Positions 7,343 through 29,561 of a stretch of DNA of 64,000 bases are shown one piece after another. The stretch is from Bradyrhizobium sp. AZCC 2262 (GTDB lineage: Bacteria; Pseudomonadota; Alphaproteobacteria; Rhizobiales; Xanthobacteraceae): the NCBI RefSeq assembly GCF_036924535.1, contig NZ_JAZHRT010000001.1, positions 7,192,001-7,256,000 of the forward strand, read 5' to 3'. How positions within the stretch are numbered: position 1 is the first letter of the stretch; each line of letters opens with the position of its first letter. Made by a program: the position numbers and the translations under genes. The notes below the pieces were generated by a model. It worked only from the letters and a program-made list of their open reading frames with translations, searched no databases and was not told where the DNA came from.

Positions 7343-7352
7343 AGAGTGCTCT

Positions 7353-8495: not shown

Positions 8496-8551
8496 GTTCG
8501 TTACTTTCTCCAGAATTCAAATTCGGGCAACGCCGTTGTTGAGCTTTCGGT

Positions 8552-8670: not shown

Positions 8671-8685
8671 ACTGTTGGTGCTGGG

Positions 8686-9876: not shown

Positions 9877-9933
9877 CGGATCCTCCTTGTGAGCGAATGA
9901 ATTACATCCGTAGTAACGCGAACTCTCTGTCTC

Positions 9934-10050
9934 GTCGTCCCTGCGAACGCAGGGACCCATAACCACCGGCGCCAACTATGCGAAAGCCGTCTCCCCATGT
10001 GCCCCAAACGAAGGCCGCGGCGTATGGGTCCCTGCGTTCGCAGGGACGAC
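9934..10050. repeat. Palindromic repeat (GTCGTCCCTGCG family, second copy)
   Basis: GTCGTCCCTGCGAACGCAGG with GACCCATA is mirrored by TATGGGTCCCTGCG and TTCGCAGGGACGAC. It closely resembles 6323-6443 and lies within the pim-like operon. Confidence 0.83.
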
Positions 10051-11748: not shown

Positions 11749-11780
11749 GGATGCGCTCAGTGCAGCGTGCAAGCCAAGCA

Positions 11781-11866
11781 GTCATTCCGGGACGCTCGCG
11801 CGTAGCGAGCGAACCTGGAATCTCGAGATTCCGGGTCTGGTGCTAACGCACCATCCCGGAATGACG
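11781..11866. repeat. Palindromic repeat (GTCATTCCGGG family)
   Basis: GTCATTCCGGGACGCTCGCG with a GCGCGTAGCGAGCG hairpin, central TCTCGAGA, and right arm CATCCCGGAATGAC. It belongs to the same family as 7247-7342 and separates pimF and pimA. Confidence 0.83.
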
Positions 11867-11887
11867 TGTGGTGAGAGCAGCGCCCCA

Positions 11888-13984: not shown

Positions 13985-14055
13985 GGGACTCTCCCTGGAT
14001 CGTTTGTTCTTGGATGCCACGCAACTTGCGTTGAGTAGCTACGGTCGATTTCGCC

Positions 14056-14074
14056 AATTTCGCACTGCGAAATT
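14056..14074. promoter_or_regulatory. Perfect palindrome, candidate IclR operator
   Basis: AATTTCGCACTGCGAAATT is a perfect inverted repeat with 9-base arms and a single central base. It lies between the divergent pimF-like gene (start 13984) and the iclR gene (start 14150). A TTGACA hexamer at 14087-14092 could be the -35 box of the iclR promoter. Position and symmetry suggest that the IclR protein binds here to control both directions; this is inference. Confidence 0.65.
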
Positions 14075-14149
14075 TAATTCCACATCTTGACAGGGAGGGT
14101 TATTTTGAAGCACGTCCCTTGTCAACGAGCTCATCAGCAGTAGCGGGCA

Positions 14150-15016
14150 ATGAAACGTCCAGGGAAAAAGGTGGCGACCGATCGCAGCTTCGTCGTCGCG
14201 CTTTCCCGCGGACTTGATGTGTTGCGCGCATTTCATCCCAATGACGGGCTTCTCGGCAATCAAGAACTTGCCGCCCGCACTAATTTGCCGAAGCCAACCA
14301 TTTCCCGGCTGACCTACACCCTGACCAAGCTGGGTTATCTTACACCCGTTCCGCGTTTCGAGAAGTATCAGCTCGCGCCATCAGCCATGGCGCTGGGGTA
14401 TGCCGCCCTTGCCAATCTCGGCGTTCGGCATTTGTCCGAACCCTATCGTGAAGAGGTGATGCGCGAGACCGGCGGCGCCGTCGCCGTCGGCGGACGCGAC
14501 CGTCACAGCATGATCTATTTCGGGCAGAGCCGTAACGGGCTGACACTCGGCGTGCAGCTCGACGTCGGTTCGCGCGTACCGATTGCAACTTCGGCGATGG
14601 GACGTGCGTATATCTGGGCACTGCCCGATGACGAACGTGCCGCTTTATTGCGCGAGCTGCGCGACCATTACGGCAGCCGGTGGGCGCGGATGCGCGACGG
14701 CATCGAACGCTCGGGCGAAACGGTGGCGAAGTACGGCTTCGCGATTTCTGCAGGCGAATGGCAGAACGATGTACACGCGGTAGGTGTGGCGCTGAAGCTC
14801 AATGACGGAACTGGGCCGTATGCCTTCAATTGCGGCGCGCCGGCATTCCGCTTCACGGAAGAGCGCCTGATGACCGACATTGGACCTCGCCTGGTCTCGA
14901 TGGTAAGGAAAATCGAGGCAGCGCTGGGCGGCGCAGCACCGCAAATCAAAAAAGCAGACAGCAAGAAACTGAAAGCAGGAGGGAAAGTTGCACGTTTGGC
15001 CGAGGGGATCAGATAG
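14150..15016 (+). CDS. IclR-family transcriptional regulator
   Basis: The protein has 288 residues. The N-terminal winged helix (about 15-80) includes ALSRGLDVLRAFHPNDGLLG, then NLPKPTISRLTYTLTKLGYL as the recognition region. The C-terminal effector-binding domain (about 90-265) contains MIYFGQSRNG and GRAYIWALPDDER. IclR proteins often control uptake or catabolism of organic acids and aromatics. It lies between the divergent pim-like operon and the downstream Liv transporter with four binding proteins and may control either or both. About 70 bases separate it from livG. Confidence 0.9.
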   Translation: MKRPGKKVATDRSFVVALSRGLDVLRAFHPNDGLLGNQELAARTNLPKPTISRLTYTLTKLGYLTPVPRFEKYQLAPSAMALGYAALANLGVRHLSEPYREEVMRETGGAVAVGGRDRHSMIYFGQSRNGLTLGVQLDVGSRVPIATSAMGRAYIWALPDDERAALLRELRDHYGSRWARMRDGIERSGETVAKYGFAISAGEWQNDVHAVGVALKLNDGTGPYAFNCGAPAFRFTEERLMTDIGPRLVSMVRKIEAALGGAAPQIKKADSKKLKAGGKVARLAEGIR

Positions 15017-15085
15017 CCTTCACCATGACCGGCGAAAACATTCGCAAGGTCATTCCCGCTCCGTGATCAGGGCGGGCGAGACGAG

Positions 15086-15883
15086 ATGACGCAGGCACAG
15101 CTCGCGCAGGGACACGCTCCCCTGCTCGCGGTTCGCGACGTCAGCGTCGTGTTCGGCGGCATCATTGCGCTGAATGGCGTATCCTTCGACATGCACAAGG
15201 GCGCGATCCTCGGCCTGATCGGACCGAACGGCGCCGGCAAGACCACGCTGTTCAACTGCCTCTCCAGACTCTATCAGCCGTCTTCCGGCGACATCCTGAT
15301 GGAAGGCGCGAGCATCCTGACGCGTCCGCCGCACCGGATCGCCGAAATCGGCATCGGCCGCACCTTCCAGAATGTCGCGCTGTTTCCCAACCTCTCGGTC
15401 ATGGACAACGTGCGGGTCGGCACCCACGCTCGCACCTCGAGCGACATCATCTCGGACTCGCTGAAGCTCGCCTGGATCCGCCGCAGCGAGGCCGACGTCA
15501 ACAAGAAGGTCCACGAGATCCTCGCCTATCTCGATCTCGAGGACGTCGCGCATACCGTGGTGTCGGGCCTGCCGTTCGGCACCCAGAAGCGCGTCGAGCT
15601 GGCGCGCGCGCTCGCCGCCGATCCAAAAATCCTGCTGCTCGACGAGCCCGCCGGCGGCCTCAACCACGAGGAAGTCTATGTGCTCGGCGATTTGATCCGC
15701 CGGATTCGCGACGAGCGTCACATGACCGTGCTGCTGGTCGAGCATCACATGGGCCTCGTGATGTCGATCGCCGACCACGTCGTTGCCCTCAACTTCGGCC
15801 GCAAGCTTGCCGAGGGAACACCGGCCCAGGTCCAGGCCGACCCGGATGTCATCAAGGCCTATCTGGGGAGCAAGGACCAATGA
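15086..15883 (+). CDS. livG: Branched-chain amino acid-type ABC transporter ATPase LivG
   Basis: The protein has 265 residues. The Walker A is GPNGAGKTTLFNCLSRLY (about 47), the Q-loop region is GIGRTFQNVALFPNLSVMDN, the signature is the LivG-type LPFGTQKRVELARAL, and the Walker B is ILLLDEPAGGLNHEE, followed by LLVEHHMG. It ends in the LivG-typical VIKAYLGS. It energises import through LivH and LivM. Its stop overlaps the livF start by four bases (ATGA), so the two genes are translationally coupled. The true substrate may not be an amino acid; neighbours suggest organic acids. Confidence 0.93.
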   Translation: MTQAQLAQGHAPLLAVRDVSVVFGGIIALNGVSFDMHKGAILGLIGPNGAGKTTLFNCLSRLYQPSSGDILMEGASILTRPPHRIAEIGIGRTFQNVALFPNLSVMDNVRVGTHARTSSDIISDSLKLAWIRRSEADVNKKVHEILAYLDLEDVAHTVVSGLPFGTQKRVELARALAADPKILLLDEPAGGLNHEEVYVLGDLIRRIRDERHMTVLLVEHHMGLVMSIADHVVALNFGRKLAEGTPAQVQADPDVIKAYLGSKDQ

Positions 15884-16593
15884 CCGCGATGCTCAACATC
15901 AAGGATCTCCGCGCCTATTACGGCCAGGTCCAGGCGCTTCATGGCCTGAGCTTCGCCCTCAATGAGGGCTCGCTGACCACCCTGCTCGGCGCCAACGGCG
16001 CCGGCAAGACCACCACCTTGCGCGCGATCTGCAACATGGTGCGTTCGACCGGCGCGATCGAGTTCGAGGGCAAGCCGCTCTCCGGCAAGTCGACCGAAAA
16101 CGTCGTTCGTCTCGGCATCGCGCATGTACCGCAGGGCCGCGGGACCTTCACCACCATGACGGTGGAGGAAAACCTGCAGCTCGGCGCCATCACCCGCACC
16201 GACAAGAAGAGCATCGTCGCCGATATCGAGCGCATGTACGAGCACTTCCCGGTGCTGAAGGAACGGCATACCCAGCAGGCGGGCACGCTGTCAGGCGGCG
16301 AGCAGCAGATGCTCGCGGTCGCGCGCGCGCTGATGCTGCGGCCGCGGCTGATGCTGCTGGATGAGCCGTCGTTCGGCCTGGCGCCTTTGATCGTGCGCGA
16401 GCTGTTCAATATTCTCGGCAAGATCAACCGCGAGGACAAGGTCACCATTCTGGTGGTCGAGCAGAACGCGCAACTGGCGCTGGAACTGGCCGACCAGGCC
16501 TACGTGATCGAAACCGGACGCATTGTGATGTCGGGCAACGCCAAGGACATCGCGAACAACGAAGACGTCCGCAAATCCTATCTCGGCTACTGA
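15880..16593 (+). CDS. livF: Branched-chain amino acid-type ABC transporter ATPase LivF
   Basis: The protein has 237 residues. The Walker A is LLGANGAGKTTTLRAICNM, the signature is GTLSGGEQQMLAVARALM, the Walker B is LMLLDEPSFGLAPLIVREL, and it ends VRKSYLGY as LivF proteins do. It is the second nucleotide-binding subunit of the transporter. It overlaps livG by four bases and lies 11 bases before livH. Confidence 0.94.
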   Translation: MTAMLNIKDLRAYYGQVQALHGLSFALNEGSLTTLLGANGAGKTTTLRAICNMVRSTGAIEFEGKPLSGKSTENVVRLGIAHVPQGRGTFTTMTVEENLQLGAITRTDKKSIVADIERMYEHFPVLKERHTQQAGTLSGGEQQMLAVARALMLRPRLMLLDEPSFGLAPLIVRELFNILGKINREDKVTILVVEQNAQLALELADQAYVIETGRIVMSGNAKDIANNEDVRKSYLGY

Positions 16594-16604
16594 GGAGCAG
16601 GACA

Positions 16605-17483
16605 ATGGAGCTGTTTACCAACCAAGTCCTGGCCGGGATCGCCACGGGCGCGATCTATGCCTGCATGGCGCTCGCCGTTGTGATGATCTACCAGGCGATC
16701 GACCATCTGAATTTCGCCCAGGGCGAAATGGCGATGTTCTCGACCTTCATTTCCTGGCAGCTGATGCAGTGGGGCATCCCCTATTGGTGGGCCTTCCTGA
16801 TCACGCTGATCATCTCCTTTGCCGGCGGTATCCTCATCGAACGGTTGCTGTTCAAGCCGCTCGCCAAGGCCCCGGTGCTGACCAACGTCGCCGGCTTCAT
16901 CGCGCTATACGGGATCATCAACTCGGTCGCCGGCCTGATCTGGGACTTTACCATCAAGCAATATCCGACGCCGTTCGGATCATCGCCGTTCCTCGGCAGC
17001 CAGCTGATCTCGACCCACCAGGCCGGCATGATCGGCGTAACCGTGCTGCTGCTGATCCTGCTGTTCCTGTTCTTCCAGTACACACGGATCGGACTTGCTA
17101 TGCGGGCGGCTGCCGCGCTGCCTGAATCGGCTCGCCTGGTCGGCATCAACACGTCGTGGATGATCGCGTTGGGCTGGGGCATGGCTTCCGCGATCGGGGC
17201 GATCGCCGGCATCCTGATCGCTCCCGTCGTGTTCCTCGAGCCGAACATGATGCTGGGCGTGCTGCTCTACGGCTTCGCCGCGGCCGTGCTCGGGGGCCTG
17301 ACTTCGCCGCTCGGCGCCGTGGTCGGCGGGTTCCTGGTCGGCATCTTTGAGAATCTCGCCGGGACCTACATTCCCGGCGTCGGTAACGAGCTGAAACTGC
17401 CGATCGCGCTTGCGCTGATCATCACCGTCCTGGTCTTCAAACCCGCTGGCCTGTTGGGCCGGCCCATCGTGAAGCGAGTTTGA
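16605..17483 (+). CDS. livH: Branched-chain amino acid-type ABC permease LivH
   Basis: The protein has 292 residues, with about eight hydrophobic segments. Family hallmarks are the N-terminal QVLAGIATGAIYACMALAVV, NFAQGEMAMF, and the cytoplasmic coupling region RAAAALPESARLVGINTSWM followed by GAIAGILIAPVVFLEPNM. It forms the membrane channel with LivM. GAGGAG precedes the ATG. Its stop codon lies just before the livM start. Confidence 0.93.
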   Translation: MELFTNQVLAGIATGAIYACMALAVVMIYQAIDHLNFAQGEMAMFSTFISWQLMQWGIPYWWAFLITLIISFAGGILIERLLFKPLAKAPVLTNVAGFIALYGIINSVAGLIWDFTIKQYPTPFGSSPFLGSQLISTHQAGMIGVTVLLLILLFLFFQYTRIGLAMRAAAALPESARLVGINTSWMIALGWGMASAIGAIAGILIAPVVFLEPNMMLGVLLYGFAAAVLGGLTSPLGAVVGGFLVGIFENLAGTYIPGVGNELKLPIALALIITVLVFKPAGLLGRPIVKRV

Positions 17484-17485
17484 TC

Positions 17486-18499
17486 ATGAGCGCTGTCGAA
17501 GACGTCGTCACAGAAGCACCGGCCGTAGAGGCCGTTCCGAAGCGCGCCATGACGCTCGGCTTGGGCACCTCGCTGGTAGTGCTGGCCGCGCTGGTGCTCG
17601 CACCGCTGTTCGTCAAGAACTTCATCATCTTCCAGATGACGATGCTCCTGATCTACGGCCTTGCGGTTCTGGCGCTCAATATCCTGACCGGTGGAAGCGG
17701 CCAGTTCTCGCTGGGCCAGAGCGCATTTTACGCGGTGGGCGCCTACACGTCGGCGATCCTGATGGAACATGTCGGGATGAACTACGCGCTGACGCTGCCG
17801 ATCGCGGGGCTGATCTGTTTCGGCTTCGGATTCCTGTTCGGCCAGCCGGCGCTGCGGCTTTCCGGCGTCTACCTCGCGCTGGCGACGTTCGCGCTTGCCA
17901 CCGCGATGCCGCAGTTGCTGAAGCTCGGCTTCTTCGAGCACTGGACCGGCGGCGTCCAGGGCCTGGTCGTGACCAAGCCCGACGCGCCGTTCGGCCTGCC
18001 GATGTCGCAGGACATGTGGCTGTACTACTTCACGCTCGTGATCACGATCGGCATCTACATCGCCTCGGTCAACCTGCTGCGGTCGCGTTCGGGCCGCGCC
18101 TTCATGGCGATCCGTGACAACGAGATCGCGGCGTCTGCGATGGGCGTCGACGTCGCGCTGTACAAGACGCTGGCGTTCGGTGTCTCGGCCGGCATCACCG
18201 GCATTGCCGGCGGCCTCGGCGCCATCGCGGTACAGTTCGTCGCCCCGGACGGCTACACCATCGTGCTGTCGATCTCGCTGTTCCTCGGCATGGTGGTCGG
18301 CGGCGTCGGCTGGCTGCCGGGATCGATCGTCGGAAGCGCCTTCATCATCTTCGTGCCGAATATCGCCGAAGGTATCTCCAAGGGCCTCTCCGGTGCCGTA
18401 TTCGGCGTGCTTCTGTTCCTTGTCATCTTCCTGGTACCGCACGGCGCCAGGCAGGTCGCGATCGTTGCCCAGCAACTGATCGGCAAACTGAAGAAGTAA
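17486..18499 (+). CDS. livM: Branched-chain amino acid-type ABC permease LivM
   Basis: The protein has 337 residues. The N-terminal cytosolic stretch of about 30 residues is followed by multiple membrane segments. NILTGGSGQFSLGQSAFYAVGAYTSA is the LivM signature near the start, and AIRDNEIAASAMGVDVALYKTLAFGVSA is the coupling helix. The ATG at 17486 is used; a TTG six bases upstream overlaps the livH stop. It is the last permease gene before the binding-protein array. Confidence 0.93.
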   Translation: MSAVEDVVTEAPAVEAVPKRAMTLGLGTSLVVLAALVLAPLFVKNFIIFQMTMLLIYGLAVLALNILTGGSGQFSLGQSAFYAVGAYTSAILMEHVGMNYALTLPIAGLICFGFGFLFGQPALRLSGVYLALATFALATAMPQLLKLGFFEHWTGGVQGLVVTKPDAPFGLPMSQDMWLYYFTLVITIGIYIASVNLLRSRSGRAFMAIRDNEIAASAMGVDVALYKTLAFGVSAGITGIAGGLGAIAVQFVAPDGYTIVLSISLFLGMVVGGVGWLPGSIVGSAFIIFVPNIAEGISKGLSGAVFGVLLFLVIFLVPHGARQVAIVAQQLIGKLKK

Positions 18500-18517
18500 A
18501 CCAGCTCAGGAGAAAAA

Positions 18518-19744
18518 ATGCGTTCGGCAACAATAAGAAGCGCCGCCTTCTGGACGGCGCTCATCACTTTCGCTGCCGCAAACGGCAGTGCACTCGCCCA
18601 AAAGAAGTACGACACCGGTGCGACCGATACCGAAATCAAGATCGGTCACATCGTGCCCTACAGCGGCCCTGCCTCCGCCTATGGCATCATCGGCAAGACC
18701 GAAGAAGCGTACTTCAAGATGATCAATGAGAACGGCGGCATCAAGGGCCGGAAGATCAAGTTCATCTCGTATGACGACGCCTACAGCCCGCCAAAGGCCG
18801 TCGAACAGGTGCGCAAACTCGTCGAGAGCGACGAGGTGCTGCTGGTCTTCAATGCCCTCGGCACGCCGTCCAACACCGCGATCCAGAAATATCTGAACTC
18901 CAAGAAGGTGCCGCAACTGTTCGTCGCCACCGGCGCGACCAAGTGGAACGATCCGACGCACTTTCCGTGGACCATCGGATGGCAGCCGAGCTATCAGAGC
19001 GAAGCGCGCATCTACGCCAAGTTCCTGATGAAGGAAAAGCCCGACGCCAAGGTCGCCGTGCTCTACCAGAACGACGATTTCGGCAAGGACTACCTCAAGG
19101 GCCTGAAGGATGGCTTTGCCGGTAAGGCATCGGCGATCATCGCCGAGGAAAGCTACGAGGTCTCGGAGCCGACGATCGACAACCATATCGTCAAGCTCAA
19201 AGCCAGCGGCGCGGACGTCCTGATCAGCATCACCACGCCGAAATTCGCAGCGCAGACCATCAAGAAGATGGCCGAGGTCGACTGGAAGGCGCTCCAGATC
19301 GTGGCCAACGTCTCGACCTCGGTCGGCGCTGTCATGAAACCGGCGGGCTTCGAGAACGGACAAGGCGTGCTGTCGGCGCATTACGCCAAGGACGCCGGCG
19401 ATGCGCAGTGGAAAGACGATCCCGGGATGAAGAAGTTTCTCGCCTTCCTGGACAAGCACTATCCGGACGCCGACCGCACCAACAGCCAGGTGATCTATGG
19501 TTATGGCGCAGCCCAGACCCTCACCAAGATCCTCGAGATGAGCGGTGACGACCTGACCCGCGCCAACATCATGAAACAGGCGGCGAACCTGAAGGACTTC
19601 ACGCCCGACACGCTGTTGCCCGGCGTCAAGATCAACACATCCGCCACTGACTTCGCGCCGATCGAGCAGCTTCAGATGATGCGCTTCAAGGGCGAGAAGT
19701 GGGAGATGTTCGGAGAGGTCATCAGCGGCGAAGTCGAGCATTAA
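18518..19744 (+). CDS. Liv-type periplasmic substrate-binding protein, paralog 1 of 4
   Basis: The protein has 408 residues. A Sec signal peptide ends ANGSALA before QKKYDTGATDTEIKIGH. It is a type I periplasmic binding fold (Peripla_BP_6): IVPYSGPASAYGIIGKTEEA, ISYDDAYSPPKAVEQVRKLV, PQLFVATGATKWNDP and VLYQNDDFGKDYLKGLKDGF. It delivers a solute to the LivHMGF machinery encoded directly upstream, from which it is separated by only 18 bases including AGGAG. Three closely related copies follow. The substrate is unknown; related proteins bind amino acids, aromatic acids or short organic acids. A strong terminator follows. Confidence 0.92.
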   Translation: MRSATIRSAAFWTALITFAAANGSALAQKKYDTGATDTEIKIGHIVPYSGPASAYGIIGKTEEAYFKMINENGGIKGRKIKFISYDDAYSPPKAVEQVRKLVESDEVLLVFNALGTPSNTAIQKYLNSKKVPQLFVATGATKWNDPTHFPWTIGWQPSYQSEARIYAKFLMKEKPDAKVAVLYQNDDFGKDYLKGLKDGFAGKASAIIAEESYEVSEPTIDNHIVKLKASGADVLISITTPKFAAQTIKKMAEVDWKALQIVANVSTSVGAVMKPAGFENGQGVLSAHYAKDAGDAQWKDDPGMKKFLAFLDKHYPDADRTNSQVIYGYGAAQTLTKILEMSGDDLTRANIMKQAANLKDFTPDTLLPGVKINTSATDFAPIEQLQMMRFKGEKWEMFGEVISGEVEH

Positions 19745-19793
19745 TTAATATTCCGTCCCGCGGGCAGCTTCCCGCGGCATCCGACTAAATACC

Positions 19794-19825
19794 GCCCCCC
19801 GCGACCTCGTCGCGGGGGGCTTTTT
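19794..19825 (+). terminator. Rho-independent terminator after binding protein 1
   Basis: A perfect 12-base stem, GCCCCCCGCGAC / GTCGCGGGGGGC, with the 3-base loop CTC is followed by TTTTTGTT. It should end most transcripts coming from the livGFHM operon after the first binding-protein gene. Confidence 0.92.
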
Positions 19826-19925
19826 GTTGCTGGACACGACCGAAAGGTATTCAATGCTGCCAAGAGCCGCCAAGCGCTCCAATCAAAAACAATGACACAG
19901 TCATCGATCCCAGGGAGATCAAAAA

Positions 19926-21155
19926 ATGTCCGTTATCAACTTGCGACTGGGAGCCTTTGCGGCTGCCCTCGCATTGCTCGCCGCGACCAGCAGCGGTGCA
20001 TTGGCACAAAAGAAATACGACACCGGCGCGAGCGACGCTGAAATCAAGATCGGCAACATCATGCCTTACAGCGGGCCGGCCTCGGCCTACGGCGTGATCG
20101 GAAAAACGTCAGAGGCCTATTTCAGGAAAATCAATGCCGAGGGCGGCATCAATGGCCGCAAGATCAACTTCATCAGCTATGACGACGCCTACAGCCCGCC
20201 GAAGACGGTGGAGCAGGCACGCAAGCTGGTAGAAAGCGACGAAGTCCTGCTCATCTTCAATCCGCTGGGCACGCCGCCGAATACCGCGATCCAGAAATAC
20301 CTCAACACGAAGAAGGTGCCGCAACTGTTCGTCGCCACCGGCGCCACCAAGTGGAACGATCCGAAGGACTTCCCCTGGACCATGGGATGGCAGCCGAATT
20401 ACCAGAGCGAATCCCGGATCTATGCGAAGTACATTCTGAAGAACAAACCGGACGCGAAGATCGCGGTGCTCTACCAGAACGACGACTACGGCAAGGACTA
20501 TCTGAAGGGATTCAGGGATGGCCTCGGCGACAAGGCCGCCTCGATGATCGCCATCGAGGAAAGCTACGAGGTTTCCGAACCGACCATCGACTCTCACATC
20601 GTCAAGATGAAAGCGACCGGCGCCGACGTCTTCTTCAACATCACCACGCCGAAATTCGCAGCACAGGCGATCAAGAAGAACTCCGAGATCGGCTGGAAGC
20701 CGCTGCACTTCCTCAACGGCGTCTCTTCCTCGATCGGCAGCGTTATCAAGCCTGCGGGCTTTGAGAATTCGCAAGGCATCATCTCCTCAAACTACCTGAA
20801 GGATCCGACGGACATCGAGTGGAAGAACGATGCCGGCATGAAGGCCTGGAACGAGTTCCTGGACAAGTATTACCCGGAAGCCAATCGTGCCGACATCTTC
20901 GTGATGTATGCATATACCGTGGCACAAGGCCTCGAGCGTGTGTTGAGGGCGAGCGGCGACGATCTCACACGCGCCAACGTCATGAAGCAGGCCGCGAGCA
21001 TCAAGGATCTCCAGCTCGGCGGCTTGCTGCCGGGCATCAAGGTCAACACGTCCGCCACCGATTTTGCTCCCATCTCGCAGGTGCAACTGATGCGGCTAAA
21101 GGGCGAGACCTGGGAACGCTTCGGCGAAATTCTCTCGGATGACGTCGGCGGCTAG
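19926..21155 (+). CDS. Liv-type periplasmic substrate-binding protein, paralog 2 of 4
   Basis: The protein has 409 residues with a signal peptide ending SSGALA before QKKYDTGASDAEIKIGN. It shares long identical blocks with paralog 1, including PQLFVATGATKWNDP, EESYEVSEPTIDSHIVK and LLPGIKVNTSATDFAPISQ. AGGGAGATC precedes the ATG. It has a 181-base leader that starts with the terminator of the previous gene, so it probably has its own promoter or relies on read-through. It closely resembles paralog 3. Confidence 0.92.
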   Translation: MSVINLRLGAFAAALALLAATSSGALAQKKYDTGASDAEIKIGNIMPYSGPASAYGVIGKTSEAYFRKINAEGGINGRKINFISYDDAYSPPKTVEQARKLVESDEVLLIFNPLGTPPNTAIQKYLNTKKVPQLFVATGATKWNDPKDFPWTMGWQPNYQSESRIYAKYILKNKPDAKIAVLYQNDDYGKDYLKGFRDGLGDKAASMIAIEESYEVSEPTIDSHIVKMKATGADVFFNITTPKFAAQAIKKNSEIGWKPLHFLNGVSSSIGSVIKPAGFENSQGIISSNYLKDPTDIEWKNDAGMKAWNEFLDKYYPEANRADIFVMYAYTVAQGLERVLRASGDDLTRANVMKQAASIKDLQLGGLLPGIKVNTSATDFAPISQVQLMRLKGETWERFGEILSDDVGG

Positions 21156-21181
21156 CACCCGGGTTCGCCCATCAAAGAAGC

Positions 21182-21212
21182 AGCCTCTGCGGCTTTGTCG
21201 CAGGGGCTTTTT
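21182..21212 (+). terminator. Rho-independent terminator after binding protein 2
   Basis: The stem AGCCTCTGCG / CGCAGGGGCT, with one G-U pair, has a 7-base loop and is followed by a short T run. It lies about 25 bases after the stop codon. Confidence 0.85.
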
Positions 21213-21313
21213 GTTGTGAGGTTACCGGCAAGATGCTAATCACGGCACGTCAAAGAGCTTCATCGAAGGAGCCTGGCAACTATCATTTGTTAAATGAAAA
21301 GGGAGAGACAAAA

Positions 21314-22540
21314 ATGTCCGCATTAAAAAAACTGGCGGTTCTTTCAGCCACGTTTGGATTGCTTGCTGCATCGTCAAGCAGCGTTCTCGCACAGAAGAAA
21401 TACGATGCCGGCGCAACCGACACCGAAATCAAGGTCGGCAACATCATGCCTTACAGCGGCCCCGCATCCGCTTATGGCGTGATCGCAAAGACCGAAGAAG
21501 CCTATTTCCGGAAGGTCAACGCCGAGGGTGGTATCAACGGACGCAAGATCAATTTCATCAGTTACGACGATGCCTACAGCCCGCCGAAGACTGTGGAGCA
21601 GGCGCGCAAGCTGGTCGAGAGCGACGAGGCATTGGTTGTCTTCAATCCGCTGGGTACCCCGCCGAACACGGCTATCCAGAAATACCTCAACTCGAAGAAG
21701 GTGCCGCAACTGTTCGTCGCTACCGGCGCCACCAAATGGAACGATCCGAAGAACTTCCCCTGGACCATGGGCTGGCAGCCCAACTACCAGAGCGAAACGC
21801 AGATCTATGCGAAGTATGTCCTGAAGAACAAGCCGGACGCCAAGATCGGGATTCTCTACCAGAACGACGATTACGGTAAGGATTACCTGAAGGGCTTCAA
21901 GGACGGACTCGGCGCCAAGGGGGCATCGATGATCGTCCTGGAGGAAAGCTATGAAGTCTCCGAACCGACCATCGACTCCCACATCGTCAAGCTGAAGTCG
22001 ACCGGAGCCGACGTGTTCGTCAACATCACCACGCCGAAATTCGCCGCGCAGGCGATCAAGAAGAACGCCGAGCTCGGCTGGAAGCCCCTCCACTTCCTCA
22101 ACAGCGTCTCGGGCTCAATCGGCAGCGTCATAAAGCCGGCCGGCTTTGAGAACGCGCAAGAGATTATCTCTTCGCAATACCTCAAGGATCCTGCTGATAC
22201 GGAGTGGAAGAATGATGCTGGCATGAAGGCCTGGAACGAATTCCTGGACAAGTATTACCCCGAGGCCAACCGCGCCGATTCATTCGTCATGTACGGGTAC
22301 ACGGTGGCACAAACTCTGGAGCATGTGCTGAAGTCTAGCGGCGACAACCTGACGAGGGAAAACGTGATGAAGCAGGCCGCAAGCTTGAAGGACCTCGAAC
22401 TCGGGGGACTGTTGCCGGGCGTCAAGATCAATACGTCAGCAACCGATTTTGCACCAATTTCGCAGATGCAACTGGTGAAATTCAAAGGCGAGACCTGGGA
22501 GCGCTTCGGCGAAGTTCTCTCCGGCGACGCCGGCGGCTAG
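21314..22540 (+). CDS. Liv-type periplasmic substrate-binding protein, paralog 3 of 4
   Basis: The protein has 408 residues with a signal peptide ending SSSVLA before QKKYDAGATDTEIKVGN. It is very close to paralog 2 throughout (GGINGRKINFISYDDAYSPP, KTVEQARKLVESDEA, FLDKYYPEANRADSFVMYGY). The ATG at 21314 has GGGAGAGAC upstream; the frame is open back to 21233 but those residues do not look like a signal sequence. The leader is distinct from that of paralog 2, so each copy may be separately controlled. Confidence 0.92.
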   Translation: MSALKKLAVLSATFGLLAASSSSVLAQKKYDAGATDTEIKVGNIMPYSGPASAYGVIAKTEEAYFRKVNAEGGINGRKINFISYDDAYSPPKTVEQARKLVESDEALVVFNPLGTPPNTAIQKYLNSKKVPQLFVATGATKWNDPKNFPWTMGWQPNYQSETQIYAKYVLKNKPDAKIGILYQNDDYGKDYLKGFKDGLGAKGASMIVLEESYEVSEPTIDSHIVKLKSTGADVFVNITTPKFAAQAIKKNAELGWKPLHFLNSVSGSIGSVIKPAGFENAQEIISSQYLKDPADTEWKNDAGMKAWNEFLDKYYPEANRADSFVMYGYTVAQTLEHVLKSSGDNLTRENVMKQAASLKDLELGGLLPGVKINTSATDFAPISQMQLVKFKGETWERFGEVLSGDAGG

Positions 22541-22569
22541 CCTCGTCTCCACAATCGACAACCGCATCA

Positions 22570-22602
22570 GGCCCCCTGCAACACCGTTGCGGGGGGCCTT
22601 TT
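22570..22602 (+). terminator. Rho-independent terminator after binding protein 3
   Basis: The stem GGCCCCCTGCAA / TTGCGGGGGGCC has a 5-base loop and one weak pair and is followed by TTTT. It lies 30 bases after the stop codon of paralog 3. Confidence 0.88.
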
Positions 22603-22759
22603 CGTGAGCCTTCTGCTATCGCCCGATCGGAAAAGCCGATTGGCCCGCCAAACCGCTTACACTTCGGCGGATCATGCGCTAGGTATCGGCCCGGCACTCC
22701 CCACAAGAAGCCGCAGCGCCTATTCCCCTTGGGCGCGGAAGAACAAGGAGCTTTGCGAA

Positions 22760-23983
22760 ATGCCCCTGCTGACCCGACGCCGTATCGCGACCACCCTGCT
22801 CGGCCTCGCGATGGCCATGAGCGCAACCGCCGCACTGGCGCAGAAGTACGACACCGGCGCCAGCGACACCGAGATCAAAATCGGCAACATCGTGCCCTAT
22901 AGCGGTCCGGCATCGGCCTATGGTGTGGTCGGCAGGGCGATGGGCGCGGTGTTCAAGAAGGTCAATGACGAGGGCGGCATCAATGGCCGCAAGATCAATT
23001 TCATCTCCTATGACGACGCCTATTCACCGCCGAAGGCCGTCGAGCAGGCGCGCAAGCTGATCGAGAGCGACGAGGTTCTGCTGCTGTTCGGCACGCTCGG
23101 CACCCCCTCCAACACCGCGATCCAGAAATACGTCAACAGCAAGAAGGTGCCGCAGCTGTTCGTCGCCACTGGCGCCACCAAGTGGAACGACCCGAAGGCG
23201 TTTCCCTGGACCATGGGCTGGCTGCCGAGCTACCAGAGCGAGTCGCGCATCTACGCGAAGTATCTCACGAAGGAGAAGCCGGCGACCAAGATCGCCGTGC
23301 TCTACCAGAACGACGACATGGGCAAGGACTATCTGAAGGGCCTGAAGGACGGCTTCGCCAAGGATACCTCCCGCATCGTTGCGGAGGAAAGCTACGAGGT
23401 GTCGGAGCCGACCATCGACTCGCATGTGGTGCGGATCAAGTCGTCCAATCCGGATGTCGTGGTGTTCTTCACCACGCCGAAGTTCGGCGCGCAGGCGATC
23501 AAGAAGCTCGGCGAGATGAGCTGGAAGCCGGTCACCATCATCTCCAATGTCAGCGCATCCACCGCGACCGTGATGCGGCCCGCGGGGCTGGAGAATTCGC
23601 AGGGCGTGATCTCGGCCGCCTACGCCAAGGACGCCAGCGATCCACAGTGGGAGGGCGATGCCGGCATCAAGGCGTTCGACGCGCTGCTGACCAAATATTT
23701 GCCGGAGGTCAATCGCGTCGATTCCTCGGCCATGACCGGCTACAACATGGCGACCACCATGGTCGAAGTGTTGAAGCGTTGCGGCGACAATCTGACCCGC
23801 GAGAACGTGATGAAGCAGGCTGCGAGCCTGAAGCAGTTTCCGCAAGGCGGGCTGCTGCCGGGCGTCACCCTCTCCACCGGGCCGGACGACTTCCAGCCGA
23901 TCGAGCAATTGCAATTGATGCAGTTCAAGGACGGGCGCTGGCAGTTGTTCGGCGACGTCATCAGCGGCGAACTCGGCCACTAG
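22760..23983 (+). CDS. Liv-type periplasmic substrate-binding protein, paralog 4 of 4
   Basis: The protein has 407 residues with a signal peptide (PLLTRRRIATTLLGLAMAMS) ending TAALA before QKYDTGASDTEIKIGN. It is the most divergent copy: the region corresponding to EEAYFRKVNAEGG reads MGAVFKKVNDEGG, and it has DVVVFFTTPKFGAQAIKKLGEMSW. AAGGAG lies nine bases before the ATG. Coding DNA here is richer in GC at third positions than in paralogs 2 and 3. No hairpin terminator is seen after it; a palindromic repeat follows. Confidence 0.92.
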   Translation: MPLLTRRRIATTLLGLAMAMSATAALAQKYDTGASDTEIKIGNIVPYSGPASAYGVVGRAMGAVFKKVNDEGGINGRKINFISYDDAYSPPKAVEQARKLIESDEVLLLFGTLGTPSNTAIQKYVNSKKVPQLFVATGATKWNDPKAFPWTMGWLPSYQSESRIYAKYLTKEKPATKIAVLYQNDDMGKDYLKGLKDGFAKDTSRIVAEESYEVSEPTIDSHVVRIKSSNPDVVVFFTTPKFGAQAIKKLGEMSWKPVTIISNVSASTATVMRPAGLENSQGVISAAYAKDASDPQWEGDAGIKAFDALLTKYLPEVNRVDSSAMTGYNMATTMVEVLKRCGDNLTRENVMKQAASLKQFPQGGLLPGVTLSTGPDDFQPIEQLQLMQFKDGRWQLFGDVISGELGH

Positions 23984-24033
23984 CGCGTGATGACTTTTCT
24001 TCGAAACGTCATCCCGCTCTATCTCTTTGATTT

Positions 24034-24082
24034 GAGCATGATCTTTTCGGAAAACCGGTATCCACTTTTCCGGATCATGCTC
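24034..24082. repeat. Palindromic repeat (GAGCATGATC..GATCATGCTC family)
   Basis: GAGCATGATC at the left and GATCATGCTC at the right enclose CGGAAAACCGG and CTTTTCCG, which pair as inner arms. A sister copy lies at 41512-41560. Confidence 0.88.
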
Positions 24083-24097
24083 TAGGACAGGATTGCC

Positions 24098-25387
24098 ATG
24101 ACCGACCGACGCCCCTTCCTGCGTTCAATCTTCGATGCGGCCGTTGCGGCCGCGCATCCCGACGTCGTGCTGTCGGCGCATCTGCGCCCGGTGCCGAAGG
24201 GTAGGGTGATCTGCCTTGCCGCTGGCAAGGGCGCGGCAGCGATGGCGGCTGCGGCCGAACGGCACTATCTTGATGCGCTGGGGCTCGATCCCGCGCGACT
24301 GACCGGCATTGCCACCACGCGCCACGGCCACGGCGTGCCGACGCGGCGGATCAAAGTGATCGAGGCCGGCCATCCCGTGCCCGATGAAGCCGGGCTGAAA
24401 GCCGCCGACGAAACGCTGCGCCTCGCCGCTGAGGCAACCGCTGACGATCTGATGCTGGTGCTGTTGTCTGGCGGCGGCTCCGCGAACTGGATCGCGCCAG
24501 CCGAGGGTGTTTCGTTCGCGCAGAAGCAGCAGGTGAACCGCGCGCTGTTGCGGTCGGGCGCGCCGATCGGCGAGATGAATATCGTCCGCAAGCATCTGTC
24601 GCGGATCAAGGGCGGACGGCTGGCCCGCGCCGGACAGCGCGCCGCCGAAATCGTTACGCTGGCGATCTCCGACGTGCCGCATGACGATCCGTCCGCGATC
24701 GCATCGGGACCGACGGTGCCGGATCCGAGTACGCTGGCGGACGCCCGCGCGCTGGTGGCACGGTATAATCTCACGGTCGACGATGCTGTCAGGCGCGCGC
24801 TCGAAGATCCCAGGAATGAGAGCTGCAAGCCCGGCGATGCCGCGTTTGCCCGCGCACAATTCGAGATGATTGCCAAGCCGAAAGCTTCGCTCGACGCGGC
24901 CATCAAGGTCGCAAAGGACGCCGGCTATGAGGTCATCGGCCTCGGCGCCGATCTGGAAGGCGAAGCCCGCGACGTTGCGGCCGATCATGCGCGGCTGGCG
25001 CTGAAGGCACGCAGCGAGGGTAAACGCATCGCGATCCTTTCGGGCGGCGAACTCACGGTGACCGTACGCGGCAATGGTCGTGGTGGCCCCAATCAGGAAT
25101 ATGCGCTGGCGCTGGCGGATCTGCTGAAGGACACGTCAGGCATTGTGGCGCTGGCCGCGGACACCGACGGCGCCGACGGCGGCGCCGGCAGCGCAACCGA
25201 TCCGGCCGGCGCGGTGATCGATCAGGCGACGTTTGCGAAGATGAAGTCGCTCGGCCTCTCACCTGCGGCCTACCTCGCCAACAATGACGCCACCGCGTTC
25301 TTTTCGGCCACCGGCGATCTGTTGCTGACGGGCCCGACACTCACCAACGTCAATGACGTCAGGGTGATTTTGGTAGACCCCGCCTAG
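24098..25387 (+). CDS. ttuD: Glycerate 2-kinase (MOFRL family; older name hydroxypyruvate reductase TtuD)
   Basis: The protein has 429 residues. The N-terminal DUF4147/GckA domain has CLAAGKGAAAMAAAAE, IEAGHPVPDEAGLKA, LLSGGGSANWIAP and MNIVRKHLSRIKGGRLA. The C-terminal MOFRL domain has GGELTVTVRGNGRGGPNQEY, ALAADTDGADGG and LLLTGPTLTNVNDVRVI. It phosphorylates D-glycerate to 2-phosphoglycerate in glyoxylate, serine or tartrate metabolism. It stands as a single gene between the binding-protein array and a c-di-GMP gene. Confidence 0.92.
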   Translation: MTDRRPFLRSIFDAAVAAAHPDVVLSAHLRPVPKGRVICLAAGKGAAAMAAAAERHYLDALGLDPARLTGIATTRHGHGVPTRRIKVIEAGHPVPDEAGLKAADETLRLAAEATADDLMLVLLSGGGSANWIAPAEGVSFAQKQQVNRALLRSGAPIGEMNIVRKHLSRIKGGRLARAGQRAAEIVTLAISDVPHDDPSAIASGPTVPDPSTLADARALVARYNLTVDDAVRRALEDPRNESCKPGDAAFARAQFEMIAKPKASLDAAIKVAKDAGYEVIGLGADLEGEARDVAADHARLALKARSEGKRIAILSGGELTVTVRGNGRGGPNQEYALALADLLKDTSGIVALAADTDGADGGAGSATDPAGAVIDQATFAKMKSLGLSPAAYLANNDATAFFSATGDLLLTGPTLTNVNDVRVILVDPA

Positions 25388-25569
25388 GTTTTCCGAACCG
25401 CCGCCCGGCATCCTGTACGCGCCAAAACGTCGTTAACGCTTTGTTGAGCAAGTTGCGAAGAAACGGCACGCATTTGCCGGCCTCGAAGGTGCAATTCACC
25501 AGCTTGGGCTTCTAATGGCCGCTCTCCTGGAGGGAGGAGAGCCGCCGATGGCGGCTGGGGAAACGCCAT

Positions 25570-27717
25570 ATGAGCGATCACGGCCAGATTACCGCCCCGC
25601 GGTCAGCGCCCTTGAGTGCGCGGCTCGAAGAGGCGATCAACCATTTGTCGCTCGGGATCGTCATTTTCGACGAGAAACGCGAAGTCGTTTTCTGCAACGA
25701 GCGTTACAGGGAAATGTACGGGCTGTCGCCTGAGCAGGTGAAGCCGGGCACACCGACCAGTGAACTGATCCGGCATCGGCTGGATCTCGGCCTCAAGGTG
25801 CCGCTCGCCCCCGATGATTACATCCGTGCACGCGTCGGCCGCGACATCGCACTCGACACCACGGTGCAGGAGTTCGCCGACGGCCGGATCATCGCCTACA
25901 CCGTCTACCCGGTGCCCGGCGGCGGCGGGATGGCGACCCACGAGGACGTCACCGGGCGCGAAGAGCTCAATGCCCGGCTGAAGAAACAATACGAACTCGG
26001 CAGGGAGCAGGAAGAGACGCTACGCGTCAGAAACTTCCAGTTCGACACCGCGATCAACAACATGTCGCAGGGGCTTTGCTTCTTCGATGCCGACCACTGC
26101 CTGATCGTCTGCAACGATCGCTTCGTCGAGATGTATGATATTGCGCCCGAGCGCGTCAGCCCCGGCATGTCGCTGATCGAGATCGTCGACCTGCGCTTCG
26201 AGGCCGGCAGCTTCCCCGCCATGACGCGGGACGAATATCTTCAGTGGCGCACCAACGTGGCGGTTTCCAACGAGGCAAAGGACAGCATCGTCGAATTGAT
26301 GAACGGACGCACCTTCAAGATCCGGCACCGGCCGATGCCCGGCGGTGGTTGGGTCGCCACGCATGAAGACATCACCGAGCAGCGGCAGTCCGAGGTCAAG
26401 ATCGAATACATGGCGCACCACGATGCGCTGACCGATCTGGCCAACCGGGTGCTGTTGAACGATCGGCTCGAATACGCGCTGGGCAGGGTTCAGCGTGGCG
26501 AAATGCTGGCCGTCCACCACCTCGACCTCGATCAGTTCAAGGCCGTCAACGATACCTTTGGCCATCCCTGCGGCGACAAGCTGCTCAGGATCGTCGCCGA
26601 TCGGCTGCGCGGGCTCGTTGGCGAGGCCGACACGATCGCGCGGATGGGAGGCGATGAATTCGTGATCGTGCAGGCCACGGTCGCGGACCCCGCCGAGGCC
26701 ACCTCGCTGGCGCAGCGCGTCATCGACGCGCTGACCGAGCCCTATGACATCGACGGCCAGCAGGCCGTGATCGGCGTCAGCATCGGCATTTCGGTCGGCC
26801 CCGGTGACGGATCGAACCCCGACAAATTATTGCGCAACGCCGACCTCGCACTCTACCGCGCCAAGAGCGACGGACGCGGCACGTTCCGCTTCTTTGAACC
26901 CGTGATGGACCTGCAGATGCAGACCCGCCGCATCATGGAACAGGACCTGCGCAAGGCGCTGCCGGCAGGAGAATTCGAGCTGCATTACCAGCCGGTCGTC
27001 AACCTCGCGAGCAAGGAAATCAGCGGCTTCGAGGCCCTGATACGCTGGAATCATCCGGGCAAGGGGATGATCTCGCCGGCCGACTTCATTCCATTGGCCG
27101 AAGAGATCGGCTTTATCGTCCCGATGGGCGAGTGGGTGATCCGGCAGGCCTGCGCCACCGCCGCGCAATGGCCCGACAACCTTCACGTCGCCGTCAATAT
27201 CTCGGCGATCCAGTTTCGCAGCCCCGGCCTGATGCAGGTAATCGTCAGCGCGCTCGCGGCTTCCGGTCTCGCGCCCACGCGGCTGGAGATCGAGATCACC
27301 GAGTCCGTCCTGCTCCACAACAAGGAGGCGACGCTGGCCGTGCTGCATCAGTTGCGCGCGCTCGGGATCCGGATCGCCATGGACGATTTCGGCACCGGAT
27401 ATTCGTCGCTGACCTACCTGCAGAGCTTTCCGTTCGACAAGATCAAGATCGACCGCTCGTTCGTCAAGAACATCACCGAGGATTCGAGCTCGCTCACCAT
27501 CGTGCGTGCGGTCGCCGCGCTCGCGAATGGAATGGGCATGACGGCTACCGCCGAGGGCGTGGAAACCGCGGAGCAGCTCCACAGCATCGCTTCCGAAGGA
27601 TGCACGGAGATGCAGGGTTTTCTGTTCAGCCGGCCGCTTCCCGCCGCCGAGATCGAGCGGCAATTCCTGTCGGGCCGTGGCCAGCGAGATATTCAGGGCC
27701 GTATCGTCGCGGCCTGA
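25570..27717 (+). CDS. PAS-PAS-GGDEF-EAL cyclic di-GMP enzyme
   Basis: The protein has 715 residues. Two PAS-7 type sensor domains occupy about 12-130 (IVIFDEKREVVFCNERYREMYG) and 155-275 (LCFFDADHCLIVCNDRFVEMYD), both ending in a THEDxT block. A GGDEF domain follows (about 285-445) with an intact MGGDEF active site, then an EAL domain (about 460-705) with EALIRW, VNISAIQF, IEITES, MDDFGTGYSS, KIDRSF and AEGVETAEQ, all catalytic residues present. It has no transmembrane segment, so it is cytoplasmic. It can in principle both make and degrade c-di-GMP; the sensed signal is unknown. It is a single gene. Confidence 0.93.
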   Translation: MSDHGQITAPRSAPLSARLEEAINHLSLGIVIFDEKREVVFCNERYREMYGLSPEQVKPGTPTSELIRHRLDLGLKVPLAPDDYIRARVGRDIALDTTVQEFADGRIIAYTVYPVPGGGGMATHEDVTGREELNARLKKQYELGREQEETLRVRNFQFDTAINNMSQGLCFFDADHCLIVCNDRFVEMYDIAPERVSPGMSLIEIVDLRFEAGSFPAMTRDEYLQWRTNVAVSNEAKDSIVELMNGRTFKIRHRPMPGGGWVATHEDITEQRQSEVKIEYMAHHDALTDLANRVLLNDRLEYALGRVQRGEMLAVHHLDLDQFKAVNDTFGHPCGDKLLRIVADRLRGLVGEADTIARMGGDEFVIVQATVADPAEATSLAQRVIDALTEPYDIDGQQAVIGVSIGISVGPGDGSNPDKLLRNADLALYRAKSDGRGTFRFFEPVMDLQMQTRRIMEQDLRKALPAGEFELHYQPVVNLASKEISGFEALIRWNHPGKGMISPADFIPLAEEIGFIVPMGEWVIRQACATAAQWPDNLHVAVNISAIQFRSPGLMQVIVSALAASGLAPTRLEIEITESVLLHNKEATLAVLHQLRALGIRIAMDDFGTGYSSLTYLQSFPFDKIKIDRSFVKNITEDSSSLTIVRAVAALANGMGMTATAEGVETAEQLHSIASEGCTEMQGFLFSRPLPAAEIERQFLSGRGQRDIQGRIVAA

Positions 27718-27813: not shown

Positions 27814-28341
27814 TCAGAACTCCGCCGCGATCTTCGACAGCATTTCGAGCAGCGCTACGCGGTTGGCCGGGCCCAGCAATTCGTTGAGACGCGCCTCGTG
27901 CTTGCTGGCGACCAGCTTCTTGGCGCGCGCCAGCACTGCCCTGCCCTTGTCGGTCAGAACCAGGATGTGCGAGCGGCGATCGTGGGTCGAGCGCATCCGG
28001 GCGCAGAGGCCGCGGCTCTCCAGCGCATCCAGCATCGATACGAAATTCGGCCTGAGGATGCCGAGCGTGTTGGCGATTTCGGTCTGGTTGCGTCCGGGGT
28101 TCCGGTCGAGCAGCAGCAGCACCGAGAATTGCGCCGGCGTCAGTTGCAGCGGCGCGACGCAGCGCAGGAAGTCCTCGAACACCTTGAGCTGCGCGCGCTT
28201 GAGCGAGTAGCCGAGCAGGTCGGCCAGTTCGCCCAGTTGCAGCCCGGCATTGTCAGCGGCGCCATCCGCAGCGCCCGCAATTTCCTTGCCGCTGTTGCGC
28301 GGCGGCTTGACGGCATCGGTCGCTGCCTTGGAAACTGTCAT
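27814..28341 (-). CDS. MarR-family transcriptional regulator
   Basis: The protein has 175 residues. A poorly conserved N-terminal tail of about 35 residues precedes a MarR winged helix: LQLTPAQFSVLLLLDRNPG, NQTEIANTLGILRPNFVSML as the recognition helix, and the wing RSTHDRRSHILVLTDKGRAV. Such repressors typically respond to aromatic acids or their CoA esters. It is divergent from the LivH gene at 28516 and a strong inverted repeat lies between them (28396-28429), so it probably represses itself and the transporter. The ATG at 28341 is chosen; upstream codons run into the operator region. Confidence 0.9.
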   Translation of the reverse strand: MTVSKAATDAVKPPRNSGKEIAGAADGAADNAGLQLGELADLLGYSLKRAQLKVFEDFLRCVAPLQLTPAQFSVLLLLDRNPGRNQTEIANTLGILRPNFVSMLDALESRGLCARMRSTHDRRSHILVLTDKGRAVLARAKKLVASKHEARLNELLGPANRVALLEMLSKIAAEF

Positions 28342-28395
28342 GGCGTGAGGCTCGCACCCGAAAAGGGCCTGGCCGGTGGCCGGGCCCTTGATGTT

Positions 28396-28429
28396 ATATT
28401 TGATAATTGTTATTGAATATATCAAATAT
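28396..28429. promoter_or_regulatory. Inverted repeat, candidate MarR operator
   Basis: ATATTTGATA (28396-28405) and TATCAAATAT (28420-28429) are exact inverted complements separated by 14 bases. The site is AT-rich against a GC-rich background and lies between the divergent marR and livH genes. Confidence 0.68.
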
Positions 28430-28515
28430 CGACGGCTTTCAACTGCCGAGATATGGAACGGCCGGCGGACCGCGCGAGGTCAGGACCGGCGACGCTTTTA
28501 GGGGGAGCGCCAGTC

Positions 28516-29556
28516 TTGAACACGACGATCATGCTGTTCCTGCTGCAGGACGGCATCACCAATGGCGCGATCTATGCGCTGCTCGGGCTGGCGCTGGTGC
28601 TGGTGTTTGCCGTCACCCGCGTCATCCTGATCCCGCAGGGCGAGTTCGTCACGTTCGGCGCACTGAGCTACGCCGTGCTGGCGACCGGCAAGGTGCCGGG
28701 CACCGCGTGGCTGGCGATGGCGATGGGCTTGGTCGCCTTTGCTCTCGACTTGTTTGACGCGCGGCGGTCGCTGCGGCTCAAGCGGACATTGCGCTCCCTT
28801 GCCCTCAACATCGTCCTGCCCGCCGCCATCCTGGCCCTGACCTACGGTCTAGCCGGGCCCAGGACACCGATCGCGGTCAATATCGCGCTCTCGCTTTTGA
28901 TCGTCACGGCGATCGGACTATTCCTCTACCGCATCGCATTCCAGCCGATCGCCCATACCTCGGTGCTGGTGCTGCTGATTGCCTCCGTCGGCTGCCATCT
29001 CGCGCTGCAGGGCCTGGGCCTGGTGTTCTTCGGCGCCGAGGGCCTGCGCGGACCGGCGCTGTCCAACACGGCATTGACGATCGGCCCGCTGCGCTTCACC
29101 GGCCAGAGCCTTGCGGTCTATGGGCTAACGATTGCCTTCATCATAGCACTCTGGCTGTTCTTCGGCTTCACGCGGATGGGCAAGGCGCTGCGCGCCACGG
29201 CGGTCAACCGGCTCGGGGCGCGCCTCGTCGGCATCCGCACCACGCTGTCGGGACAGATCGCATTCCTGCTGGCGTCCCTGATCGGCGCGATTTCCGGCAT
29301 CCTGATCGTGCCGATCACGACGCTCTATTACGACACCGGTTTCCTGATCGGCCTGAAAGGTTTCATTGCCGCGATCATCGGCGGGCTCGTGAGCTATCCG
29401 CTGACCGCGGTGGCGGCCCTGATCGTCGGCAGCGTCGAGGCCTTCTCCTCGTTCTACGCCAGCAATTACAAGGAGGTCATCGTCTTCACGCTGATCCTTC
29501 CCGTGCTCGTGCTGCGTTCGCTCGCAGCGCCCGCCGTCGAGGAAGAGAAGGACTAA
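28516..29556 (+). CDS. ABC transporter permease, LivH-type (second system)
   Basis: The protein has 346 residues, longer than the LivH at 16605 because of an extra loop around residues 75-115 (DLFDARRSLRLKRTLRS). Hallmarks are LLQDGITNGAIYALLGLALV, LIPQGEFVTFGA, and RLGARLVGIRTTLSGQIAFLLA, followed by IGAISGILIVPITTLYYD. A TTG at 28516 preceded by AGGGGGAG is the likely start; an ATG at 28531 is the alternative. It is the first gene of a three-gene Liv-like operon and is divergent from the MarR gene. Confidence 0.85.
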   Translation: MNTTIMLFLLQDGITNGAIYALLGLALVLVFAVTRVILIPQGEFVTFGALSYAVLATGKVPGTAWLAMAMGLVAFALDLFDARRSLRLKRTLRSLALNIVLPAAILALTYGLAGPRTPIAVNIALSLLIVTAIGLFLYRIAFQPIAHTSVLVLLIASVGCHLALQGLGLVFFGAEGLRGPALSNTALTIGPLRFTGQSLAVYGLTIAFIIALWLFFGFTRMGKALRATAVNRLGARLVGIRTTLSGQIAFLLASLIGAISGILIVPITTLYYDTGFLIGLKGFIAAIIGGLVSYPLTAVAALIVGSVEAFSSFYASNYKEVIVFTLILPVLVLRSLAAPAVEEEKD

Positions 29557-29561
29557 CGGCG

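Follow-up and report, generated by a model that had tools for sequence, protein, structure and literature searches.

In Escherichia coli, two substrate-binding proteins (SBPs), LivJ and LivK, share a single LivHMGF core for branched-chain amino acids. In Pseudomonas aeruginosa, five paralogous SBPs (DppA1-5) serve one dipeptide permease and have distinct ligand profiles, one being without a detectable ligand (PMC12728205), and the rhizobial Bra permease, of the Liv/HAAT type, is used by more than one SBP, including the orphan BraC3 (PMC2978685). In Rhodopseudomonas palustris, RPA3723, RPA3724, and RPA3725 are found together with ATP-binding cassette (ABC) genes beside pimFABCDE (Giuliani et al. 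2011, PMC3223731). Here, we describe a locus in Bradyrhizobium sp. AZCC 2262 in which four tandem SBP genes (c1 to c4) follow one LivGFHM transporter core. The locus lies in a stretch of 64,000 nucleotides (contig NZ_JAZHRT010000001.1, positions 7,192,001 to 7,256,000; hereafter the window) of a genome held in a single contig of 9.48 Mb. The array is real and old, and the locus is most likely a multi-receptor importer of organic acids and a richer variant of the R. palustris system.

Whereas LivJ and LivK place two SBPs on one core, this locus has four. DppA1-5 are likewise paralogous SBPs with one permease but belong to a different SBP family and a peptide system (PMC12728205), and the Bra system, also a Liv-type permease with more than one SBP, differs in its amino acid substrates and in that no tandem array is described in the available text (PMC2978685). 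The R. palustris cluster shares with our locus a pim operon as neighbor, one ABC core, and several paralogous SBPs in a row. In a screen of R. palustris SBPs, RPA3723 and RPA3724 bound fatty and dicarboxylic acids with differing profiles, RPA3725 bound nothing tested, and the authors propose broad-range uptake via the transporter (PMC3223731). A neural network also selected rpa3725 as one of twenty genes for growth on products of lignin breakdown (PMC12844201), so this copy may be useful even though it bound nothing in the screen. Several receptors behind one pim-linked importer are already published for this three-copy form. The Bradyrhizobium locus differs in having four copies, of the types A, C, C′, and E defined below, rather than three, which by the mapping given below are a type missing from our locus followed by A and D. 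Copy types, conserved order, and terminators are not described in the available part of PMC3223731. Our literature search, with most subscription journals outside its reach, recognized no account of Bradyrhizobium arrays, and searching for the three RPA3723 to RPA3725 locus tags returned only PMC3223731 and PMC12844201. New here are the type order, the terminators between copies, the exchange of c4, and a mostly orphan subfamily of 26 members.

The core comprises LivG (15086-15883), LivF (15880-16593), LivH (16605-17483), and LivM (17480-18499), all on the plus strand and assigned by the families ABC_tran, BCA_ABC_TP_C, and BPD_transp_2. Behind it are four intact plus-strand open reading frames (ORFs): c1 (18518-19744), which starts 18 nt past livM, c2 (19926-21155), c3 (21314-22540), with an ATG start preceded by gggagag, and c4 (22760-23983). 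They scored 194.6, 184.0, 195.7, and 211.2 bits, respectively, against PF13458 (Peripla_BP_6; gathering score 31.7). Their N-termini are hydrophobic and end in A-L-A-Q or V-L-A-Q, which we judged by eye to be signal peptides. The four complete binding proteins proposed in an initial annotation of this DNA are thus borne out, as is its ranking of the copies, since the mature parts of c2 and c3 are 86% identical, c1 is 70% identical to both, and c4 is 65% to 67% identical to the others. The ratio of nonsynonymous to synonymous substitution rates (dN/dS) was 0.04 to 0.16 in 12 comparisons of these copies with those of other loci, as expected for working genes under purifying selection. The genome has 93 PF13458 matches, and the array is its sole run of more than two spaced less than 2.2 kb apart. 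At least two SBPs of the same subfamily behind livM are thus present, as in the RPA3723 to RPA3725 cluster. The expectation that Liv systems usually have one or two binding proteins agrees with counts in R. palustris, where 61 transporters have one SBP, nine have two, and one has three (PMC3223731).

The copies belong to distinct paralogue types. A tree of 108 rows separated c1 (type A, support 96), c2 and c3 (C and C′, 98), and c4 (E, 97) by the Shimodaira-Hasegawa-like approximate likelihood ratio test, and c1 clustered with the first copies of loci L116, L010, and L027. Two further types, D (99) and the less firm B (93), are absent from the window. Several deep branches were weak, so the relations between types are unsure. 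We then typed 283 copies from 92 same-genus loci by best identity to hand-picked references, which agreed with the tree for c2, c3, and c4 but is rough for the basal loci L071, L072, L074, and L112, some of whose first copies the tree sets apart. The order A-B-C-C′-D-E was unbroken in all 84 same-genus loci with at least two typed copies. The commonest set was A-B-C-D (30 loci), and the six-copy locus L124 reads A, B, C, a second C, D, and E. Same-genus arrays of two to six copies therefore draw, in a single order, on about six old paralogue types, and species appear to differ by what they retained or lost of an ancestral array, together with the younger C/C′ split. This split, in which c3 is a younger duplicate inside type C, is common to other loci of the window's subclade. 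A recent duplication confined to this genome, which would have spoken against specialization, is rejected, as the types are distinct and ordered across the genus and c2/c3 alone is younger.

Similar arrays are widespread. We compared the window with 120 fetched loci: 80 located via the IclR-family regulator protein of the locus (the best 80 of 253), whose 10-kb flank cuts arrays of at least five copies, and 20 same-genus and 20 other-genus regions picked by hand from profile matches. Before building trees and typing, we removed copies whose alignment covered 330 residues or fewer. Matches to a profile of the four proteins, counted anywhere in the genome rather than in arrays, were found in 97 of the 98 genomes from the genus, this one among them, at E ≤ 1e-195 and in 36 of 80 family genomes (four of the genus included) at E ≤ 1e-180. 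Between livM and the glycerate-2-kinase-like gene that bounds the array downstream, 71 arrays had no broken copies, with one copy in 1 locus, two in 22, three in 22, four in 24, five in 1, and six in 1. Five-copy arrays are undercounted here because the 80 loci are cut at that size. Seven wider regions chosen from strong matches (L143-L149) were all five-copy, one with a broken first copy; five of them extend loci already in the set (L048, L056, L065, L039, and L044) and are not new genomes. The 20 other-genus regions had one (4), two (6), three (8), four (1), or five (1, L092) copies; one of the single-copy regions (L095) lies outside a Liv locus. Arrays of one to six binding proteins in fixed order are thus widespread in the genus and are also found in related genera, which points to an old receptor set and no recent accident, as asked of related genomes by the initial annotation. 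One or more broken receptor copies were seen in L016, L039 (on the same contig as L148), L042, and L060, so copies do decay.

The array is not a simple operon. In the window, all three gaps that separate copies contain a G+C-rich hairpin followed by T's: after c1 (19794-19825, 12-pair stem, 11 of them G-C), after c2 (21182-21212, 12 pairs), and after c3 (22569-22603, 14 pairs), all on the plus strand. One rule, applied to gaps between copies of the window and of related arrays, gave strong intrinsic terminators in 180 of 231, compared with 0 of 1155 equal-length segments of receptor genes. This count omits gaps shorter than 30 nt and any locus in which a copy other than the last is broken. A terminator also separates the last copy from the kinase gene in 57 of 73 cases and livM from the first copy in 16 of 112, where 73 of the 112 gaps are shorter than 60 nt. 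The first receptor gene is probably co-transcribed with the permease, with the remaining ones behind terminators and so probably transcribed or dosed separately.

Individual receptors have also moved between lineages. Compared with the Bradyrhizobium lablabi locus L027, DNA identity was 96.2% for c4, 85.7% to 86.2% for c1 to c3, and 82.4% to 91.6% for neighboring genes, and synonymous divergence (dS) was 0.11 for c4 versus 0.59, 0.65, and 0.67 for c1 to c3. The stretch of high identity (93% to 98% in 150-nt windows) spans about 22650-24000 and contains c4. Loci L116 and L010, among the nearest in backbone genes, have three-copy arrays without type E. Together, these patterns show that c4 was recently exchanged between lineages, as a single receptor module acquired or replaced.

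Gene neighbors and the R. palustris counterpart bear on the substrate. On the minus strand, divergent from the plus-strand IclR gene (14150-15016; PF09339 and PF01614), are pim-like beta-oxidation genes for a FadB-like fusion (11888-14020; ECH_1 and 3HCDH_N/3HCDH) and an acyl-coenzyme A (acyl-CoA) ligase (10060-11772; AMP-binding), followed by two acyl-CoA dehydrogenase genes (about 7353-9975; Acyl-CoA_dh). The pim-like genes and single core thus adjoin the array as in the RPA3723 to RPA3725 cluster, and the FadB and ligase genes adjoin Liv genes in relatives too. Three closed genomes, whose genus we take as Rhodopseudomonas, each carry a trio of copies behind livM, with identities of 71% to 75% between copies 2 and 3, 59% to 62% between 1 and 3, and 59% to 60% between 1 and 2. 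Given the published identities of 71% for RPA3725/RPA3724 and 60% for RPA3725/RPA3723 (PMC3223731), these values fit a correspondence of copies 1, 2, and 3 to RPA3723, RPA3724, and RPA3725; the reverse order does not fit. Copy 2 is nearest to c1 (75% to 76%) and copy 3 to c2/c3 (76% to 77%), and in two more genomes of that presumed genus (L093 and L099) the corresponding copies cluster with types A and D. By this mapping, c1 is the only one of the four for which the ligand class of a near relative has been measured. The organic acid ligands suggested by the initial annotation gain support by analogy, from the fatty and dicarboxylic acids measured for two R. palustris proteins (PMC3223731).

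AlphaFold2 models of c1 and c4 (predicted local distance difference test scores of 85.3 and 84.3) resemble many type I binding-protein structures, and the top row for both was 4n03, titled as a fatty acid SBP. We examined the ligand cleft against E. coli leucine-binding protein (LBP), whose contact residues we take to be W18, S79, T102, and Y150, with Ser79 and Thr102 binding the carboxylate. Thr116, invariant, aligns with LBP Ser79, and Thr141, a Thr in every type except B, aligns with Thr102. Position 188, aligned with Tyr150, is F in nearly all type A and B copies, Y in C and D, and M in E (F, Y, Y, and M in c1 to c4). Positions 112, 113, 156, 237, 238, 263, 269, 270, 327, and 330 also differ by type. 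The E. coli LBP alignment covers LBP up to residue 198, short of the amino-group-binding Glu226. Positions 188, 112-113, 237-238, 263, 327, and 330 differ among c1 to c4 and likely line the cleft, where they could contact ligand. The identical pockets that would have counted against specialization are thus not predicted here, and specialization of the four is likely.

We consider it probable that the locus is a broad importer of fatty and dicarboxylic acids with one LivGFHM core and several differently tuned receptors. Medium- and long-chain fatty and dicarboxylic acids, for example from cutin and suberin, would be imported and would feed the adjacent beta-oxidation genes. Four periplasmic receptors would compete for one core, as their linkage suggests. 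Being old paralogue types under purifying selection with their own residue sets, they would be expected to have overlapping but different ligand ranges, and receptor genes after the first, behind strong terminators, would be separately transcribed or dosed rather than forming one even operon. Species would keep different subsets of the ancestral array and could exchange members. Several observations weigh against this interpretation. A ligand class has been measured for RPA3723 and RPA3724 only, and for none of c1 to c4; RPA3725, probably the R. palustris relative of c2/c3, had no ligand in the screen; and identity to c4 does not exceed 68% for any member of the three trios. The fatty-acid binder 4n03 was tied with valine-bound 3lkb for both models, in a fold-match list obtained by re-examining the top 1000 of Foldseek itself. 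Type-specific residues were not enriched in ten cleft segments of our own choice, B/C being the sole one of 10 type pairs with an uncorrected p below 0.05 (p = 0.008, compared with p > 0.15 for each of the other nine). By the rule used, 51 of 231 gaps between copies had no terminator, and no sigma-70-like promoter was found at 14000-24200 (0 versus 3.1 expected from shuffles), so the argument for separate transcription comes entirely from the terminators. Of the initial proposal of one permease with several tuned receptors, the linkage stands, the effect of the differences between copies on the ligand is putative, and type-specific residues are not concentrated in the cleft. The terminators, the foreign history of c4, the R. 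palustris counterpart, and the orphan relatives described below go beyond that initial annotation.

The spread of type-specific residues through the protein, without cleft enrichment, would also fit redundant copies, whose several terminated units would increase the ratio of receptor to permease. Cells usually make more binding protein than permease, c2 and c3 are 86% identical, and copy number varies from one to six without loss of the locus. However, the types are distinct and their order is fixed over the genus, whereas pure redundancy would favor concerted evolution or loss, and two members of the R. palustris trio differ in ligand profile (PMC3223731). We regard dosage as an unlikely explanation, although the strongest of those set against tuned receptors.

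A role of the array for two Liv transporters is improbable. Behind a MarR gene, with which it spans 27814-32059, lies a second Liv set (28453-32059; LivH2, a LivM-LivG fusion of 589 aa, and LivF2) that no binding-protein gene adjoins in the window. Of the "one Liv transporter" initially described, a single LivGFHM before the array holds but another set lies 4.5 kb downstream. No PF13458 match occurs between c4 and window position 39895, and many relatives carry parts of the second set downstream of the array. In genome G153 the array is split: five receptors, the kinase gene, and the second set are at 1.93 Mb with no LivGFHM adjacent (L092), and the LivGFHM core with two more receptors is at 5.03 Mb, 3.1 Mb away (L092, L141, L151). 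The second set probably has its own receptor, however. The likely candidate in the window (39811-40962, minus strand) is 7.8 kb off, beyond groESL, and among ten relatives viewed downstream of LivF2 (L151-L160), a receptor of that type, unlike those of the array, lay within 300 nt of LivF2 in four (L151, L153, L157, and L160), at 3 to 4 kb in three, and at 12 kb in one, and was not seen in two (one with 2.4 kb in view).

A branched-chain amino acid system of the LivJ/LivK type, despite a similar fold and gene set and the name "branched-chain amino acid transport system substrate-binding protein" in source annotations of near c1 homologues, is very improbable given the adjoining pim-like genes, scores of 52.3 (c1) and 64.6 (c4) bits, for the two copies scanned, against a cut-off of 477 for the NCBIfam LivJ/K model NF011933, and the 22 R. 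palustris COG0683 proteins with ligands unlike their annotation, very few of which shifted with leucine, isoleucine, or valine (PMC3223731).

The array also has many scattered relatives. The same genome encodes 26 proteins that reach E ≤ 1e-60 against the four-protein profile; even the lowest-scoring one has 409 bits, which sets the group well apart. Only 1 of the 22 members outside the array lies within 10 kb of a PF02653 permease match, compared with 43 of 67 other PF13458 matches (Fisher p = 6.5e-7). These orphans (4.5%) are no nearer to a permease than chance, as that distance takes in 8.7% of the genome. In four other genomes, 3 of 47 members outside arrays were within 10 kb of a PF02653 match and 44 were not, with the five copies of the split G153 array counted as array. 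Across the five genomes, the pim-linked LivGFHM is the only permease regularly linked to this coherent subfamily of 13 to 26 members; the genome of the window has 42 permease loci. Orphan receptors may use the core of the locus in trans, by analogy with BraC3 and Bra, or may use other permeases or be sensors. Tentatively, and with the odds somewhat against it, the pim-linked LivGFHM could be a hub permease importing what the array and many scattered orphans bind. In a partial view, no common theme was seen among the neighbors of five orphan loci (18 proteins plus the ORFs of L129). At locus L133 of the same genome, two tandem proteins of about 810 aa (7333-9780 and 10064-12499 of that region) fuse an array-subfamily Peripla_BP_6 domain to NMT1_3 (PF16868), forming double receptors near a weakly GntP-like permease, a flavin mononucleotide oxidoreductase, and a CoA-transferase.

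Other features of the window can be noted briefly. The kinase-like gene (24098-25387, plus strand) has DUF4147/MOFRL domains and scored 184 bits against NCBIfam GlyK_Thmprot, under the cut-off of 550. A palindromic repeat follows c4 (24034-24082), of which a 25-base part (24034-24058) occurs 30 times in the genome with up to two mismatches (reversed control, 0). An Rfam scan of 14000-26000 gave no match. The IclR regulator has a single match at E ≤ 1e-60 per genome in the five genomes searched.

The substrate of an ABC importer is usually read from a single binding protein. Here, the receptor set is modular and punctuated by terminators, with members lost, kept, or swapped by species, and the "branched-chain amino acid" label from automatic annotation is put in doubt for these proteins. 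Arrays of one to six copies, drawn from about six types in a known order, form a natural series for studying receptor tuning and permease sharing. The core may also serve a large family of orphan receptors; if it does act as a hub, one added receptor gene could extend a genome's diet.
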